DNA of 64,000 nucleotides from a bacterium (GTDB lineage Bacteria; Eisenbacteria; RBG-16-71-46; CAIMUX01), in assembly GCA_030431975.1 (NCBI GenBank), contig JAUIHP010000002.1, positions 310,001 to 374,000 on the forward strand, given 5' to 3'. Both the position numbers and the translations under genes were made by a program. Shown in pieces: positions 46,767 through 53,998 of the stretch. Below the pieces are notes generated by a model, which saw nothing but the letters and a program-made list of their open reading frames with translations, did no database searches and was not told the origin of the DNA. The first letter of the stretch is position 1; every line of letters starts with the position of its first letter.

Positions 46767-47234
46767 TCAACTCCGGACGGCCACGCCGAGGTGCTTCAGC
46801 CGGGCTGCCACGTCATCTCCCGCCTTGCCCGCATCGACTTCGTCGTCGATGAACGCGATCTTTCCCTCGAGGTCGACATAGAACGTGCGTCTCTTCGGTT
46901 TGCGAACCACCGGAATGAGAATCCCGTAGGCGTCCGCCACTTCCTTTCCCGGATCACTGAGGATCGGAAAGTCGAGTTCGAGGGACTCGGCGAACTTGCG
47001 GTTGGTGTCCTCGTCGTCGCAGCTGGCGCCGAAGTAGGCGACTTCGAACTTGCGGATGGCATCGCCTCTCTCACGGAGAGACTTGCACTGGGCGGTTCAG
47101 CCGCCCGTAAAGGCGCTGGGAAACCAGGAGACAACGACCGTCTCACTCCCGCGATAGTCAGCCAGTCGGTAGGTCTTTCCATCGGAACCGGGAAGTGTCC
47201 AGTCCGGTGCGATATCTCCTTCCTGCAAACTCAT
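46767..47234 (-). CDS. Selenocysteine-containing peroxiredoxin (UGA-recoded, BCP/AhpC-like)
   Basis: A 155-residue thioredoxin-fold peroxidase read through one in-frame TGA (47099-47097) at residue 46. The frame from ATG at 47234 reads [20 protein letters not shown], then [19 protein letters not shown]. The TGA falls exactly on the peroxidatic Cys of P-x3-T-x2-C. After it the frame continues for 109 codons with normal family sequence ([20 protein letters not shown], then [18 protein letters not shown]) to a TGA at 46769. Cys50 (U-x3-C) is a candidate resolving residue. TGA is an ordinary stop for neighbours (nuoN, nuoI, nuoJ, the 47239 gene), so global recoding is excluded. AAAGGGG precedes the start, 4 nt after the upstream stop. 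It should reduce peroxides in the cytoplasm. A nonsense mutation or read error is the alternative. Confidence 0.85.
47059..47106 (-). promoter_or_regulatory. Candidate bacterial SECIS element
   Basis: Immediately 3' of the UGA the mRNA can form a stem-loop: UCUCUC (47081-47076) pairs with GAGAGA (47072-47067), with outer GCA/UGC pairing (47086-47084 with 47061-47059). The apical loop contains GU 22 nt after the UGA, within the spacing expected for bacterial SECIS elements. In addition GGGCGG (47106-47101) and CCGCCC (47095-47090) bracket the UGA itself in a 5-nt loop. Confidence 0.6.
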
Positions 47235-47238
47235 GACA

Positions 47239-47604
47239 TCACCCCTTTCTTCGGGCATCGACGAACGATTTGATCCCGGCCAGGAGCAGCGCCAGGCAGA
47301 CGACGGAGGTCACGACCTGGGCAACGACTGCGACCGGGCGTTCGACCTCTCCGCCGGACAACATCTGAGCGAACGGCGCCAGTCCACGGGAGGAGCCGAG
47401 CACTCCAAGGAGCGCAAGGACCATGACCACATGCATCGCGGCCTTTCGACGGCTCTGCTGCTGTCCCCACATCGCCAGGATCGCGAAAAGCGCGCCGATG
47501 ATTGCCGGAATCAAGGCCGTAAAGCTGGCCCGCCCAGTCCCGAAGTAGCTTCCAACTCCGAGAAGGATGAGGAGAACTCCAGCGTAGAGAGTCGGTCGGA
47601 TCAT
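47239..47604 (-). CDS. Four-helix membrane protein, unknown
   Basis: A 121-residue protein with four hydrophobic helices ([70 protein letters not shown]) and a short basic C-terminus (DARRKG). ATG at 47604 is preferred since GAGGA lies 6 nt upstream; another ATG two codons earlier sits on that site. Its stop is 4 nt before the peroxiredoxin start, so the two are very likely cotranslated. It resembles small TMEM14-like or DUF-type inner-membrane proteins, but no function can be assigned. Confidence 0.75.
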
Positions 47605-47686
47605 TTCCATTCCTCACTCGTTTTGCGGACGAAGGTCAGAGTGTAGTCCACGCAGCCGCCTCGTTCCCAGCGACGTCTGCAGTTCG

Positions 47687-48142
47687 TTAAGGTGCGTCGG
47701 CGCCTTCGGTCACCGAAGCCGGGCTCATGTGCGTTCCGATCCCAACTCCCTGGAATCCGGAGTTCCGAACGGCATCGAGAATCTGGACGATGGTGCCATG
47801 AGGAACCGCGTCTTCGGCCTTGAGAAGCACGCGTTGATCGGGAGTCTCCGTGTGAAGTTCTTTGAGCGCGGCGGGAAGGGCGTCCACAGACACCGGGACC
47901 CCACCGAGTTGAACGTCACCGTTCTCCAGAACCACAATCTCGATCTCCGCCTGTTCCTCGGGAGATCCTGCGGCCTGCGACGACGAAGAGGAAGGTAGCT
48001 GCAGCTCGAGTTCACCCACCCGTTTGAAGGTTCCGGTCATCATGAAAAAGATGATGAGAAGGAAGAGGACGTCGATCAGCGGCGTAATGGAAAGAGTCGT
48101 CTCTTTCCGGCTCTTGCGGGGACGAAATGCGATCGCCGTCAT
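47687..48142 (-). CDS. exbD: ExbD/TolR-family biopolymer transport protein
   Basis: A 151-residue inner-membrane protein. There is one N-terminal helix (TPLIDVLFLLIIFFMMTGTF) with the proton-pathway Asp, then a periplasmic domain (VVLENGDVQLGGVPVSVDAL, VLLKAEDAVPHGTIVQILDA). It forms the energy-harvesting motor with ExbB. Its start overlaps the exbB stop by 4 nt (ATGA). Confidence 0.93.
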   Translation of the reverse strand: MTAIAFRPRKSRKETTLSITPLIDVLFLLIIFFMMTGTFKRVGELELQLPSSSSSQAAGSPEEQAEIEIVVLENGDVQLGGVPVSVDALPAALKELHTETPDQRVLLKAEDAVPHGTIVQILDAVRNSGFQGVGIGTHMSPASVTEGADAP

Positions 48143-48903
48143 TCCGTGACACCCGCCGGTCCGCTGCCCGGAGCACCTCCGGAAGCACTTCCCGGAACGG
48201 CTCCCGGAACGGTTCCCGGAACGGTTCCCGAAACTCCTCGCGAAACGCTTCCGGATGCGCCTTCCCAGGGCCCTCCCGCGATCAGACCTTCACTTCCCTG
48301 CCGTCCGCGACGCAACTTTGCCGCGAGTTCGGTAGCATGGTGTTCGATCTCGTTGAGAAGAGTTTCGGACTTCGACGCGAGCAGGTTGTGCGCGACCAGC
48401 GTCGGAATCCCCACCGCCAGGCCGATCGCAGTCGTGATCATGGCCTCACTGATTCCCCCGGAAAGCGCCTGCGGATCCCCAAGACCCGCCAACGAGATCG
48501 AACTGAACATCCGAATCATTCCAAACACCGTTCCCAAGAGACCCAGAAGTGGCGCGGCCTGCGCGATCGTTTGAAGCCAGACGAGATGACGCTCGAGCAC
48601 AGCGGCCTTCTGCCGACCGACGTCCTGAATGCTGTCACGCAGGACTTCCCACGGTTCTTCAGCGTGCTCGAGTCCGGCGCGAACGACGTCGGAGAAGACC
48701 CCTGGATTCGCCCGGCAAACTTCCAAGGCCAGAGAAAGGTCCCGACCTGGGCGAACGGCACCGACGACCTGCAGGATTTCTGCGGGAAGGACACGGCTTC
48801 GCCGTAGGGCAAAGACGCGTTCGACCGCGATCGTCGCTGCAATCAGACTGCACAGAACCAACGGATAGATGAGCGGACCGCCGCTTTTCAGGAACTCGAG
48901 CAT
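48139..48903 (-). CDS. exbB: ExbB/TolQ-family proton channel protein
   Basis: A 254-residue protein with three transmembrane helices. The N-terminal helix is GGPLIYPLVLCSLIAATIAV. The conserved MotA/TolQ/ExbB core is LVWLQTIAQAAPLLGLLGTV (start of helix 2) and EAMITTAIGLAVGIPTLVAH (helix 3). The C-terminal 45 residues are a low-complexity Val-Pro-Gly/Ser-Gly tail encoded by 12-bp repeats at 48169-48262. It starts 12 nt after the TonB-like gene stops. Confidence 0.93.
   Translation of the reverse strand: MLEFLKSGGPLIYPLVLCSLIAATIAVERVFALRRSRVLPAEILQVVGAVRPGRDLSLALEVCRANPGVFSDVVRAGLEHAEEPWEVLRDSIQDVGRQKAAVLERHLVWLQTIAQAAPLLGLLGTVFGMIRMFSSISLAGLGDPQALSGGISEAMITTAIGLAVGIPTLVAHNLLASKSETLLNEIEHHATELAAKLRRGRQGSEGLIAGGPWEGASGSVSRGVSGTVPGTVPGAVPGSASGGAPGSGPAGVTE
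48169..48262 (-). repeat. 12-bp repeats encoding VPG-rich tail of ExbB
   Basis: Degenerate copies of GGAACGGTTCCC (plus-strand view) give VPGT-VPGA-VPGS-type tetrapeptides at the ExbB C-terminus. Confidence 0.8.
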
Positions 48904-48915
48904 GTAAGATCTCCG

Positions 48916-50010
48916 TTAACGACCATACCTCGACGCCTCCGGGTAGGAGAGCGTCAGCGTCAGTATCAGGTGCTCTTCGGGAAAGTCCACCGGCAGGGGC
49001 TGGAAAGGACGGGTGCGACCAACGGCATCCAGACTCGATCGCTTGAGCGCCTCGTGTCCCCTCTCATCCAGAACGTCCAACTGCTCCAGAGTGCCGTCGG
49101 GGTTGATGGTCAGTCGCATGACGGTAAAGCCGTGAGTCATTCCCAGTCGGTAGCCGATCGGCGCCGACCAGTTTCCGAGTAGCTTCCTTCGAAACTCGCC
49201 CAACCAAGGGGCCCAGTCCCAAGCTGTCGTGTTGAGGCTGATGTCGCCGGGCAGGTCGGCGTTGCTGCCGGGAGAGGCGGATCGCTCCTGACGAATGTCG
49301 CTGTTGCCCGGAGGAGTCCACGTTTCACCGGGTGGCGTCGAAGTACGGCTGGGACGAAAGACTTCCGTCGGGGGCGCGTCAGCGGGGGGCGCGTCAGCGG
49401 GGGGCGCGTCAGCGGGGGGCGCGTCAGCGGAGGTCGCCTCGGCGGAGGACGCGTCAGCCGCGGTCGCGTCAGCCATAGTCTCGTCGACAGGGTCCTGGAC
49501 CTCCGAGATCTCCCGGCTGCTTTCGTCCGACTGTGGATCCGTTTGTGAGTCGGCCTGTGGATCGGCCGCCGAATCCGGACGGGGCTCTGAGCTTTCGTCG
49601 GCCTGTTCCACCGGGCGGAACTCCGGCACCGCCGTCCCCTGGGCTTCCGGAACGGATCCTTCGACCATTTCGACCTGCGGGAACTCGACCCGGCCATCCT
49701 GACTGGGCAACCGGTCCTCCCCGCCTTCCACCAGGTCTCGCGCGCGACTGTCCAGGTTGCTCAGGAAGTCGGGATCTTCCGGAGCTTCATCGGCCCGATC
49801 GGAGGGAAGTTCGGTAAACCTCTGCGGTTCTTCCTGCGGAAAAACGACCTGGATGGTGGGTGACTCTTCCGGCACAACGGCCCGCTCGTCCGGCGAAGCA
49901 AAGAGGTCGACGCGCGCAATCCCGACGAGAGCACCCAAATGCAACAGCACGGCAACGAGGAACGCTCCCGTCCAGATCCCGCGGCTACTCTGATTTGTGG
50001 TGGGACTCAC
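48916..50010 (-). CDS. TonB/TolA-like energy transducer
   Basis: A 364-residue protein. GTG at 50010 has GGAGG 9 nt upstream. One N-terminal helix (GAFLVAVLLHLGALVGIARV) anchors it. A long acidic/Pro periplasmic spacer (about 50-255) contains tandem ADAPP repeats. The C-terminal domain (about 265-364) resembles TonB/TolA C-termini (LGEFRRKLLGNWSAPIGYRL, FTVMRLTINPDGTLEQLDVL, KRSSLDAVGRTRPFQPLPVD). The order tonB-exbB-exbD is the classic energised-transport unit. Which outer-membrane receptor it drives is not visible here. Confidence 0.87.
   Translation of the reverse strand: MSPTTNQSSRGIWTGAFLVAVLLHLGALVGIARVDLFASPDERAVVPEESPTIQVVFPQEEPQRFTELPSDRADEAPEDPDFLSNLDSRARDLVEGGEDRLPSQDGRVEFPQVEMVEGSVPEAQGTAVPEFRPVEQADESSEPRPDSAADPQADSQTDPQSDESSREISEVQDPVDETMADATAADASSAEATSADAPPADAPPADAPPADAPPTEVFRPSRTSTPPGETWTPPGNSDIRQERSASPGSNADLPGDISLNTTAWDWAPWLGEFRRKLLGNWSAPIGYRLGMTHGFTVMRLTINPDGTLEQLDVLDERGHEALKRSSLDAVGRTRPFQPLPVDFPEEHLILTLTLSYPEASRYGR
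49369..49476 (-). repeat. 15-bp tandem repeat in TonB-like gene
   Basis: About four near-perfect copies of GCGTCAGCGGGGGGC and further degenerate ones encode the ADAPP pentapeptide repeat in the periplasm-spanning spacer; copy-number change would alter spacer length in frame. Confidence 0.88.
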
Positions 50011-50184
50011 CCGACGAAGCCTCCAGACACACCTCCCCCGAGTCGGTGGACCGTCACCAAGGATACCGCGATTGAACCACTCCGGTTCGGTCGGGGCCAC
50101 CCTCCCGGGCAAATGTCATCTTTCTGCCACATCCCGAGCCCCATCAATTCACGAAGGCCCCGGGAAGACCCAACCAAACAGAAG

Positions 50185-50218
50185 AGCCCACCCCGAACAG
50201 GACCGTTCCGGGTGGGCT
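50185..50218 (-). terminator. Terminator of M16 protease operon
   Basis: 14-bp arms (AGCCCACCCCGAAC with its partner at 50205-50218, one mismatch) with a 6-nt loop, followed on the minus strand by TCTTCTGTTTGG, about 85 bp after the stop at 50304. Confidence 0.75.
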
Positions 50219-50303
50219 CCAGCGATTCAGCCAAACCCCGCTCTCGCCACCTCGAAGCCACTCCCATTCTCTTGGGGGCGGCCGACGCGGCATGGCGACG
50301 GTA

Positions 50304-52481
50304 CTACTGCGAAGGCATGGCGAAGGCATCCTCCGTGATACCCGTGTTCGCCGCGATGGAATTGACCGTCAACGTCGCGAGGAGGTCACCGTCGTGATAG
50401 ATCTCCCGGCTGTGAGGCCAAGCCACCCCCGAGACCGGCTTGAAGTCGGCAAAGGTCTCGGTCGCGGTGACCGGTGCGCCCGTCATCATCGAACGATCCT
50501 TGTACATCATCTGCACGAGCTGCTGATTGGCGCTGTCGATGAAAAGCTTCCAACCGGCAACGATGTCGCTGTGGACAAAGACAACGTCACAGAGACGCCC
50601 GTTGACATCCTTCTGCTCGGGCAAAGCCTGGAACTTCATGTCCGAGTAACCGGCCAGAAGGTTGAAGTAATCGCGGCTCTGGCTCTTCTTGGCCTCACTC
50701 ACCGCCTCCGGCGGCATGGCCGTCGGACCCTGCATCTGATTGATCCAGGCGACATCGCCACAGAGTGCCGAGGCGAACTCGCCCATGGGCAGTTTCTGCA
50801 CCGACTTCTCGCAGGACGGAAGGAGTCTTTCCGTCTCGATCGAAATCTGCAGCGACATTCCCTGCACCTTGAACTCGCCGGACTCACTGATCTTGAGATC
50901 CTTGATCGAAGCAGTCTGGCTGGCGTTATGCGCCTTGGCCATTCCCTGGACCAATCCCATCCCCCGCTCGAGATCAGCGTCGGTGGCGATGGGAATCTCC
51001 TCGCCCTCCGGTTCGGGAATGGTGATGTCCAGTTCCTGGACCTGACCCAGCTTCGGTAGATCGGCAGCAAAATTCTCGGAGTTCCCCATGACCATGGTGG
51101 CCATCTCGTCAGGTACCACGTTGCGTTGCGCCGCAGCCAGGATTTCGTCCGCCGTCAGGTTCTGAATCGCCTGCTGATAAGTCGTTAGGAAGTCGGCCGG
51201 ATAACCGTGGTACTCGTAGACCGCCAAACGGTTGAGCACGGCAAACCCGTTCGAGTACTGGAAGACCATCGAGTTCAGGATTCCGTCCTTGGCCTGCTGC
51301 AACTCCTGCTCGGTGAAAGGTTCCGCAAGCGACTTGCGGATCTCCTCACGAACATAACCGAGAGTCGCGACCGTGGAGTCCGACTGCGTCGCAGCAAAGA
51401 AGATCTCCCCACCGGGGTGATGCAGTCCGGCCCCGGCCGAGGAACCGGAGGCGTAGGCAAGCCCGCGCTTGGTCCGGATCTCGTTGAAGAGCCGACTGCT
51501 GAAGCCGCCACCCATGATCTCGTGATAGAGACGCATCGCCGGATAGTCGGGATCACTCATGCGAAGTCCGGGGTGACCCATGAGAACGAAGCTGTTCGTC
51601 ATGTCGCCCTTCTTCACGAGGAAGTTTCCGGAGACGTCCGCAAACTCCGGCTTGGGCTCGGGCGGCAAGGGCTCGGAAGCCGGCGGCCAATCGCCGAAGA
51701 CTCGCTCGACCTCGGCCTTGACCTGCTCTTCGTCGAAGTCACCGTAGATCGTCAGTATGACCCGATCCGGGTGGAAGAATCTCTTGTGCAGTGCGACCAG
51801 GTCATCACGGGTGATCGCGTCGATCGTCGCATGCTCGGTGTGACGTGCGTACGGCGAGTCTTCTCCGTAGATCAGCTTGGGAAGCTCGCGAGAGAGAACA
51901 CTCATCGGTTCATCGTTACGTGATGCGATCGCGGTCTTCTCCTGCTTCTTTGCCAGCTCGACCTTTTCTTCCGGGAATGCCGGGTTGCGGAGGAGATCGC
52001 CCAGAATCTCGAGTCCGCGTGGAAAGTCTTCCTTCAAGGTCGAGATCGAGGCCGATCCGGACGTTTCACCAATCGAAGTCTCGACGCTCGCACCCATGGA
52101 CTCCAAAGTGGCGTCGAGGGCATCGCCGTCGACGTTGATGGAGCCGCCCGTGCGCATGACCTGGCCTGCGATCGAAGAGAGCCCGGCCTTGTCCGCCGGT
52201 TCGTACACCGAACCGACCCGAATAAGAGCCTGGGCGTCGACCAGCGGGAAGTCACGGTTCACAACCATGAACACGACCATCCCGTTGTCGAGTTGATAAC
52301 GATCCGGCTCGGGGACCTTGACTTCGTTGAGATCGGGGATTCCGATAGAGTCCGGGTCCGGCATGTCCTGCGCCGTGACACCGTTCGCGGCGATCAGACT
52401 GAGCGCGGACGCCGCGAGGTACCCTCCCCACCGCCCCACCGAAAGTCCGGCCCGAGCGGACTTCGAATACTTCGTTTTCAC
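50304..52481 (-). CDS. M16-family protease partner subunit (no catalytic motif) with extra C-terminal domain
   Basis: A 725-residue exported protein. GTG at 52481 has AAAGGAG 8 nt upstream; the signal is about 10-38. Residues about 55-490 are M16 peptidase-like (LDNGMVVFMVVNRDFPLVDA, PDRVILTIYGDFDEEQVKAE, GGGFSSRLFNEIRTKRGLAY). The HxxEH zinc motif is replaced by sequence around DKAGLSSIAGQV, so it is the non-catalytic half. The last 220 residues form an additional beta-rich domain, resembling outer-membrane-lipoprotein-sorting folds. The active half is encoded 20 nt upstream; the two probably assemble as a periplasmic heterodimer. Confidence 0.85.
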   Translation of the reverse strand: MKTKYSKSARAGLSVGRWGGYLAASALSLIAANGVTAQDMPDPDSIGIPDLNEVKVPEPDRYQLDNGMVVFMVVNRDFPLVDAQALIRVGSVYEPADKAGLSSIAGQVMRTGGSINVDGDALDATLESMGASVETSIGETSGSASISTLKEDFPRGLEILGDLLRNPAFPEEKVELAKKQEKTAIASRNDEPMSVLSRELPKLIYGEDSPYARHTEHATIDAITRDDLVALHKRFFHPDRVILTIYGDFDEEQVKAEVERVFGDWPPASEPLPPEPKPEFADVSGNFLVKKGDMTNSFVLMGHPGLRMSDPDYPAMRLYHEIMGGGFSSRLFNEIRTKRGLAYASGSSAGAGLHHPGGEIFFAATQSDSTVATLGYVREEIRKSLAEPFTEQELQQAKDGILNSMVFQYSNGFAVLNRLAVYEYHGYPADFLTTYQQAIQNLTADEILAAAQRNVVPDEMATMVMGNSENFAADLPKLGQVQELDITIPEPEGEEIPIATDADLERGMGLVQGMAKAHNASQTASIKDLKISESGEFKVQGMSLQISIETERLLPSCEKSVQKLPMGEFASALCGDVAWINQMQGPTAMPPEAVSEAKKSQSRDYFNLLAGYSDMKFQALPEQKDVNGRLCDVVFVHSDIVAGWKLFIDSANQQLVQMMYKDRSMMTGAPVTATETFADFKPVSGVAWPHSREIYHDGDLLATLTVNSIAANTGITEDAFAMPSQ

Positions 52482-52501
52482 GGTTTCTTCTCCTTTCCCG
52501 C

Positions 52502-53998
52502 TCAAGACTCAGCGTCTTCCGGCTTCACGATCATGGCTACGACCGAGTTCTCTTTTTTGAGGACGGCGCGCGCCGCTTCCTGAACATCTTCCACCGTGAT
52601 CGACTCGAGGTCGTCCAATGAACGGAAGAGGCGACGCCAGTCGCCCAACATGCCCTGGTAAAGAGCCAGTTGGTTGGCCAGTCCCTGATTGGATCGAACA
52701 CTACGGACGAAGGCCGCTTTGTTCATGGTCTTGACCTTTTCCAACTCTTCCTCAGTGATGCCTTCCGTCACGATGCGCTTGATCTCCTCGAGAACAACGG
52801 ACTCGACCTGGTACGGATCCGAGTCGGAGCTGGCGAAGCCGGCCAGAACCATCATGTTCGGATACTTGTTCCCGGGGAAACCGACGCCGCCGAAGATCTG
52901 GCTGCAGACCTGGTCTTCCTTGACAAGGCGCGTATACATGCGGCTGGAACGTCCGGTCGCCATGACGTCACCGAGCAGCTCGTAGGCATACCATTTGGGA
53001 TGATTGCGCCCCGGGATGTGCCAACCGACGGCATAGATCGGTTGCGAGTCCTCTTCGCGAATCATGCGGATCTGCGTCTTGTGCTCGGGCTCCGTCGTCC
53101 GGACCCGCAGCGGATCCTCGCCGGAACGCACACCGGAGAAGTACTTCTCAGCGAGCTTGCGGACCTCACCGACCTTGATGTCGCCGACCACGACCACGTT
53201 CATGTTGGACGCGACGTAGTGCTTGTCGAAGAACTCCCAGGCGTCCTGGCGGGTGATACGCTCGAGGTCTGCGGCGTACCCGATGACTCCGGTCCCGTAA
53301 GGGTGAGCGACGAAGGCGCCGGTGATCATGTCCTCGAAGAGGCGGCCGGTCGGAGAGGACTCACCGAAGCGGCGCTCCTCGATGACGACGTCCCGCTCGA
53401 CGTAGAACTCGCGCAGGACCGGATTCGTCATCCGATCGCCCTCGAGACGGGCCCAGAGTTCCAGTCGATTCGAAGGCAGCGAGTAGTAGTACCAGGTGCG
53501 GTCCAATCCGGTCGAGGCGTTGAGTCCCTGGACTCCGTTCTTCTCGAGAATCTTGGTGAACTCGTTGCTGACAACAAACTCCTGCGCTTCCTTCTGTGCT
53601 GCTTTGAAGGCAGCCATGAGTTCATCGAGCTTGATCGCGTCGGCGTCGTATTCCTTGTCGAGTTCCTTCTCATAGGCCGCCCATGCGGCGTCGACCTTTT
53701 CCAGGGCCTTCATCTCGGCTGCATGGTCTTTGGTTCCGATGGTCGGGGTACCCTTGAAGGCCATGTGCTCGAACATGTGAGCGATCCCGGTGACTCCGTG
53801 CACCTCATCGACGCCGCCGGCGTCCACGTAGGTGGTGAAGGAAAAGACCGGGGAGTCCGGCCGCTCGACGACGAGAAACTTGAGCCCGTTGTCGAGGGTG
53901 AACTCCTTGACCTGGGACTGCATCTCCTCGAAGCCGTCGGCCCAGGCCGCCGTCGCGGTCAAGAGACCTGCGAGGGCGGCGATCCCGTACTTCCGCAT
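52502..53998 (-). CDS. M16-family zinc protease, catalytic subunit
   Basis: A 498-residue exported peptidase with signal at about 1-20 (TATAAWA). The inverted zinc motif is present (His74-M-F-Glu77-His78 in GIAHMFEHMAFKG). The downstream Glu of VIEERRFGE provides the third ligand. The second half has YASNMNVVVVGDIKVGEVRK and the R/Y pair region. Residues about 85-135 form a charged helical insertion (AYEKELDKEYDADAIKLDEL). GGAGG lies 7 nt before the ATG. It probably degrades peptides in the periplasm together with the following gene's product. Confidence 0.93.
   Translation of the reverse strand: MRKYGIAALAGLLTATAAWADGFEEMQSQVKEFTLDNGLKFLVVERPDSPVFSFTTYVDAGGVDEVHGVTGIAHMFEHMAFKGTPTIGTKDHAAEMKALEKVDAAWAAYEKELDKEYDADAIKLDELMAAFKAAQKEAQEFVVSNEFTKILEKNGVQGLNASTGLDRTWYYYSLPSNRLELWARLEGDRMTNPVLREFYVERDVVIEERRFGESSPTGRLFEDMITGAFVAHPYGTGVIGYAADLERITRQDAWEFFDKHYVASNMNVVVVGDIKVGEVRKLAEKYFSGVRSGEDPLRVRTTEPEHKTQIRMIREEDSQPIYAVGWHIPGRNHPKWYAYELLGDVMATGRSSRMYTRLVKEDQVCSQIFGGVGFPGNKYPNMMVLAGFASSDSDPYQVESVVLEEIKRIVTEGITEEELEKVKTMNKAAFVRSVRSNQGLANQLALYQGMLGDWRRLFRSLDDLESITVEDVQEAARAVLKKENSVVAMIVKPEDAES

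Follow-up and report, generated by a model that had tools for sequence, protein, structure and literature searches.

In the window, the whole 64,000-nucleotide stretch of DNA that was analysed, a stop codon seems to break a peroxiredoxin gene, yet this gene is almost certainly intact, with the stop read as selenocysteine (Sec) at the catalytic position. We hold with high confidence the explanation as a whole, namely that the gene encodes a functional selenoprotein, that its UGA is recoded through a hairpin and SelB, and that a peroxiredoxin results, with Cys50 as its most likely resolving residue.

The reading frame and its internal TGA

The gene occupies positions 46767–47234 of the minus strand, a strand left unstated in the first-pass annotation, and consists of 155 codons and a TGA terminator, with a single internal stop. 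That annotation had described a 155-codon peroxiredoxin frame around one TGA, and both the translation and Pfam bear this out: when the TGA is read as a residue, the match to AhpC-TSA (PF00578) spans it (residues 6–128, E 5.7e-31), and Redoxin also matches the frame (E 4.4e-20). The TGA had further been placed at exactly the catalytic Cys, and codon 46 is indeed the peroxidatic position. The features of the locus are as follows.

46767–47234, minus strand: predicted selenocysteine peroxiredoxin gene, AhpC/TSA fold, placed between PrxQ/BCP and AhpE (translation, Pfam PF00578, AlphaFold model, 43 orthologues)
47097–47099, minus strand: UGA codon 46, predicted to be read as selenocysteine, the peroxidatic residue (orthologue alignment, Sec machinery in the genome)
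47106–47120, minus strand: codons 39–43 (P-S-A-F-T), peroxiredoxin active-site motif PxxxT ahead of Sec (P39 invariant in 44/44, residue 43 T or S in 44/44)
47085–47087, minus strand: codon of invariant Cys50, candidate resolving cysteine, U-x3-C (Cys in 44/44 orthologues; shares model helix 44–55 with Sec46)
47019–47021, minus strand: Cys72 codon (Cys in 15/29 Sec forms and 3/15 Cys forms)
46890–46892, minus strand: codon of invariant Arg115, the conserved active-site Arg of peroxiredoxins (Arg in 44/44)
47064–47082, minus strand: SECIS-like hairpin GUCUCUC-CGUGA-GAGAGGC, positions 18–36 from the U of the UGA (fold, covariation, shuffle control)
47071–47075, minus strand: apical loop CGUGA, G second, proposed SelB-binding loop (CGUGA in 25/29 TGA genes)
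47242–47248, minus strand: Shine-Dalgarno-like AAAGGGG, 7 bases ahead of the ATG (sequence)
47239–47610, minus strand: adjacent upstream gene for a 123-residue protein with several hydrophobic stretches (ORF listing; no Pfam match)

The ORF listing across the locus gives only two ORFs, one antisense (160 codons) and one out of frame (128 codons), which makes plausible the earlier expectation that standard ORF callers would split or lose the gene. The antisense ORF (plus strand, 46791–47273) is the longest uninterrupted one at the locus and could be taken for the true gene, but neither it nor the 128-codon ORF has a Pfam match, whereas the minus-strand frame matches the family strongly and has 43 orthologues, and we consider such an assignment extremely improbable.

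The gene's own terminator is also a TGA (46769–46767 as read on the minus strand; coordinates 46767–46769), so UGA carries both meanings within the peroxiredoxin gene, and the earlier assumption of a standard code, in which TGA terminates, holds in the gene itself. An in-frame TGA would be compatible with reassignment of UGA in this lineage to another amino acid (e.g., Trp or Gly), and nothing else was found in support of it. The terminal TGA, the identity of the replaced residue as the catalytic Cys, and the full Sec machinery, including a tRNA-Sec with a UCA anticodon, all argue against reassignment, to which we attach next to no probability.

On the minus strand upstream (47239–52505) lie genes for an M16 peptidase, a TonB-like protein, ExbB, ExbD, and the small protein with hydrophobic stretches. 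Among these, the small protein gene alone is near enough, 4 bases from the peroxiredoxin start, that co-transcription with the peroxiredoxin appears likely from the spacing.

Orthologues and the distribution of Sec and Cys forms

Relatives were collected from a scan of named genomes and from ∼390 Planctomycetota-group, 388 Verrucomicrobiota-group, and ∼370 Gammaproteobacteria-class genomes, the group names being taken from the titles of the records on which the genome searches were centred. Of the 11 relatives from the named-genome scan, ten were at 47–60% identity. The search of the 388 Verrucomicrobiota-group genomes returned the query genome only, the viral contig scan no relative, and tblastn against plasmids only distant BCP sequences (34–37% identity). 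The curated set comprises 44 orthologues, that is, 43 and the window gene, and its TGA and Cys forms span Planctomycetota, Verrucomicrobiota, and Gammaproteobacteria. Two TGA-form paralogues each are found in the genomes G076 (L079, L103) and G137 (L086, L104).

The first-pass annotation had proposed an alignment with Cys homologues at residue 46, and had named random stops in close relatives as evidence that would tell against it. Aligned codon 46 is TGA in 29 of the 44 genes and TGC or TGT in the other 15, and no other stop occurs in the frame of any of them. P39, Cys50, and R115 are invariant in all 44, and residue 43 is always Thr or Ser.

These data bear directly on whether the window gene is a pseudogene created by a recent nonsense mutation, as a stop codon that breaks the frame might indicate. 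The identical codon is TGA in 28 other genes of distant bacteria and Cys otherwise, with no further stop, and the hairpin described below is confined to the TGA forms. A stop could arise in the gene through any of 48 single-base changes, yet the sole stop sits at the catalytic position. Purifying selection is moreover evident beyond the TGA, close pairs having dN far below dS (e.g., L092/L093, dN 0.005, dS 0.84). A nonsense mutation is thus very unlikely, as had been judged from the window gene by itself.

No close orthologue was found in 46 other genomes of the window's phylum, in which the best matches were at about 33–38% identity (lowest E value 9.4e-22, at 33% identity); this suggests that the window copy was probably acquired laterally or has been retained only rarely.

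A hairpin downstream of the UGA

In bacterial SECIS elements, a hairpin lies immediately downstream of the UGA and carries a small apical loop containing G (PMC1088965). The first-pass annotation had suggested a search for such an element here, and one of SECIS type was found at 47064–47082, covarying and present in TGA genes only. Its 7-bp stem lies 14 bases past the UGA; the loop begins at the 22nd base after the UGA, with 21 bases intervening. A matching element in the identical register is present in all 29 TGA genes; the loop is CGUGA in 25 of them and CGGGA, CGUGC, or CGCGA in the rest. The two strands of the window hold 1699 TGAs in all, and codon 46 is the only one that has a hairpin in the family register, a G as first or second loop base, and an open frame of 40 codons to either side. 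An Rfam scan of the window at gathering thresholds returned nothing.

Among 26 distinct sequences of TGA genes, 95.1% of the cells of the seven stem pairs are paired. Changes on both sides of a pair occur in 24 cells, against a shuffle mean of 7.9 (0/500 shuffles as high), and the pairing collapses once the partner is slid by 1–3 columns. The innermost pair swaps between C-G and G-C together with CTC...GAG versus CTG...GAC. A silent wobble position of Leu is thereby coupled to the choice between a Glu and an Asp codon, a linkage that protein constraint alone would not explain. RNAalifold recovers the identical hairpin unprompted from the TGA genes.

The comparison of TGA with Cys genes is close to a controlled one, as a single protein family is seen with and without the need for recoding. 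Among the 15 Cys orthologues, 54.3% of cells are paired, no better than in shuffles, and RNAalifold does not find the hairpin. Synonymous-codon shuffling weakens the mean hairpin energy of the TGA genes from −9.9 to −4.7 kcal/mol, while that of the Cys genes is unchanged (−3.1 vs. −3.3 kcal/mol). For the window gene alone the effect is modest, with 9% of synonymous shuffles folding equally well, so that the case for the hairpin rests on the family. A free SECIS scan (any loop, 16–37 bases from the UGA) gives no more than a weak separation of TGA and Cys genes (Mann-Whitney p 0.015), because differing long foldbacks get picked in GC-rich DNA; the fixed-register hairpin discriminates far better.

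The hairpin also bears on the possibility of a sequencing or assembly error, with a true codon of TGC or TGT (Cys). The window sequence comes from a single assembly, and Cys orthologues exist. The window gene nevertheless has the TGA-type hairpin and loop that Cys orthologues lack, the genome decodes Sec, and 28 other genes carry TGA at the same codon, so there is very little likelihood of such an error. In the reading that we favor, Sec insertion at codon 46, the hairpin with its CGUGA loop would hold SelB bearing Sec-tRNA(Sec), and UGA 46 would be translated as selenocysteine; at the gene's terminal UGA, translation would still stop.

Selenocysteine machinery

The earlier claim that this lineage decodes Sec is supported by the genome that contains the window (6.19 Mb, 97% complete). 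The gene selA is on the window's own contig (C10:187264–188652, 494 bits), selB on C32 (344 bits; 367 with the C-terminal part included), selD on C52 (373 bits), and the tRNA-Sec, with a UCA anticodon, on C41 (71 bits). A genome without this machinery, which the first-pass annotation had named as evidence against its proposal, is thus not what was observed. With the UGA aligned to Cys and the downstream hairpin with its small G-bearing loop, the locus shows the features by which bacterial selenoprotein genes are recognized.

Two other candidate selenoprotein genes were noted in the same genome. The selD gene itself has an in-frame TGA (CAG-U-ASKL / TCAG-U-ASKLAP; L018, G000:C52:180766-184689), and a peroxiredoxin-like gene at C47:30933-31304 (L070, G000:C47:29900-32300) encodes FFRGGW-U-PYCNTQL, a UxxC motif. 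Both fold a compact hairpin downstream of the UGA, strong in selD and of the type GCAGCUC-GGU-GAGCUGC in L070. No formate dehydrogenase alpha chain in the genome scored above the curated cut-off, nor was one with an in-frame TGA found. Elsewhere in the window's phylum, TGA stands at the peroxidatic position of other peroxiredoxin subfamilies (LAFTGGUTKEL, DTPGUTVQGK, DTPGUTIEGR, and GTPGUIRELREF, at the loci L062, L063, L064, L065, L066, and L067 of genomes G015, G011, G002, G037, G033, and G024), so Sec peroxiredoxins recur there in several forms.

Across the orthologue set, selA is present in 25 of 27 TGA-form genomes versus 8 of 14 Cys-form genomes (Fisher p 0.012, to be taken only as a guide because related genomes are non-independent points); one of these eight, G433, was counted from two split fragments and an over-cut-off selB. 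In the Gammaproteobacteria-class sample, both TGA carriers have selA, versus 0/16 of the genomes with no match. In the Planctomycetota group, selA is also present in 14 of 20 genomes without the peroxiredoxin gene, which blunts it as a predictor there. The two TGA genomes with no selA match are G388, in which selB is present, and G117, in which neither is over the cut-off. The latter (locus L084) has a 7.2 Mb genome, a TGA-form gene, and an intact hairpin; its gap is possibly due to an incomplete assembly, a stray contig, or divergent machinery.

Predicted structure and relation to known peroxiredoxins

An AlphaFold model computed from a 25-row alignment, with Cys placed at position 46, has a mean pLDDT of 96.9. 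Among solved structures, its best match is Bcp1 of Sulfolobus (3drn, TM 0.87), with BcpB and AhpE of M. tuberculosis also among the best. Residue 46 falls close to the beginning of the model helix 44–55, where peroxidatic residues usually sit. The window protein has the predicted fold (PF00578, TM 0.87 to 3drn), the PxxxT(S)xxC/U motif, and the Arg of a peroxiredoxin, with the residues at P39, T43, 46, and R115 conserved in this manner in the 44 orthologues.

Selenocysteine peroxiredoxins of the TxxU type are well known (PMC13188914, PMC1088965, PMC2398784, PMC1794560), in agreement with the earlier remark that such proteins already exist. The window gene has in common with them PF00578, Sec in PxxxTxxU, a downstream hairpin of the bacterial SECIS type, and frequent Cys homologues. 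One experimentally described member is PrxU of Eubacterium acidaminophilum (Sohling et al. 2001, as cited in PMC13188914). The NCBIfam model NF040737, to judge from its name, is built around PrxU; it has 233 positions, and the window protein, at 32 bits against a cut-off of 270, is not a member.

The closest curated model is that of PrxQ/BCP (thioredoxin-dependent thiol peroxidase, NF006960), yet its 77.5 bits are below the cut-off of 140; Bcp1 (3drn) is also the closest fold. The helix-2 resolving Cys of PrxQ/BCP, when present, is five residues past the peroxidatic one. In contrast, Cys50 is at +4 in all 44 orthologues, and in the alignment to 3drn it is Lys51 that stands at +5. The published motifs are (D/A)xTxGC for PrxQ and PxAF(T/S)xxC for AhpE (PMC5302317), and with U for C the window protein matches both, through A41-F-T-G-G-U46 and P39-S-A-F-T-G-G-U46, respectively. 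The AhpE structures of M. tuberculosis are among the top folds at about 32% identity; unlike AhpE, the window protein has the invariant Cys50, and Gly rather than Val/Ile directly ahead of the peroxidatic residue. The peroxiredoxin-like UxxC selenoproteins (thiol:disulfide oxidoreductases) belong to the same superfamily and have Sec at a related position, but they are without TxxU, whereas the window protein is TxxU with U-x3-C; the WUPYC gene at C47:30933-31304 is the UxxC candidate of this genome.

No NCBIfam model reaches its cut-off for the window protein, and as TxxU proteins are already known, the gene is an additional representative of the TxxU family and not a new kind. The window lineage, and possibly its subfamily, may not have been separately described before.

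Proposed catalytic cycle

In the proposed mechanism, the selenolate of Sec46, activated by Pro39, Thr43, and Arg115, would reduce H2O2 or an organic hydroperoxide, which would leave a selenenic acid on Sec46. Cys50, one helical turn away, would then form an intramolecular selenenylsulfide with Sec46, to be opened by a thioredoxin-type reductant. By analogy with its family, the protein may take part in the peroxide defence of the host cell.

Alternatively, the Sec protein would be made but follow a 1-Cys cycle like that of AhpE, with Cys50 not resolving and either a partner protein or a low-molecular-weight thiol reducing the Sec directly. The match to the AhpE motif PxAF(T/S)xxC (PMC5302317) and the presence of AhpE structures among the best folds speak for this cycle, as does the alignment to 3drn, which places the PrxQ resolving Cys at +5, not +4. 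However, Cys50 is invariant in 44/44 orthologues, Sec and Cys forms alike, and is in the helix of Sec46. A 1-Cys cycle is rather unlikely, though it keeps some weight, and resolution of Sec46 by Cys50 is most likely.

Evolution, export, and significance

When residue 46 is masked in tree building, the Sec and Cys states need 7 changes on the best tree (5–8 in bootstrap trees) against a shuffled mean of 12.7, which points to a Sec/Cys exchange that was probably repeated. The well-supported branches alone force just one change, and the tree is compatible with exchange in either direction.

By a simple hydropathy cut, a hydrophobic N-terminal leader was scored in 26 of 28 Sec forms and 14 of 15 Cys forms, while the window copy is without one. 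Nearly all of the orthologue loci L051–L111 have a leader resembling a signal peptide or membrane anchor, some of them lipoprotein-like (L079). This distribution suggests that most of the family is exported and that the window copy is cytosolic. We tentatively put forward, at somewhat less than even confidence, that these proteins form a distinct, undescribed subfamily between PrxQ and AhpE, marked by U/C-x3-C, mostly exported or membrane-anchored, and with several Sec/Cys exchanges in its history.

The findings are of moderate interest for the U-x3-C spacing, the intermediate place between PrxQ and AhpE, the mostly exported relatives, and the repeated Sec/Cys exchange. A gene that annotation pipelines would probably call truncated is almost certainly intact. 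The hairpin, present in TGA forms and absent from Cys forms, offers good training material for predicting bacterial SECIS elements, and the natural Sec/Cys pairs, at 50–60% identity and sharing the second cysteine, make the benefit of selenium at a peroxiredoxin active site directly testable. For this lineage, the gene points to the use of selenium in thiol-peroxide chemistry, in a genome where no formate dehydrogenase alpha chain over the cut-off was found. If the subfamily is indeed a distinct one, it would represent a selenium-based defence against peroxides on the envelope side, found mainly across Planctomycetota.
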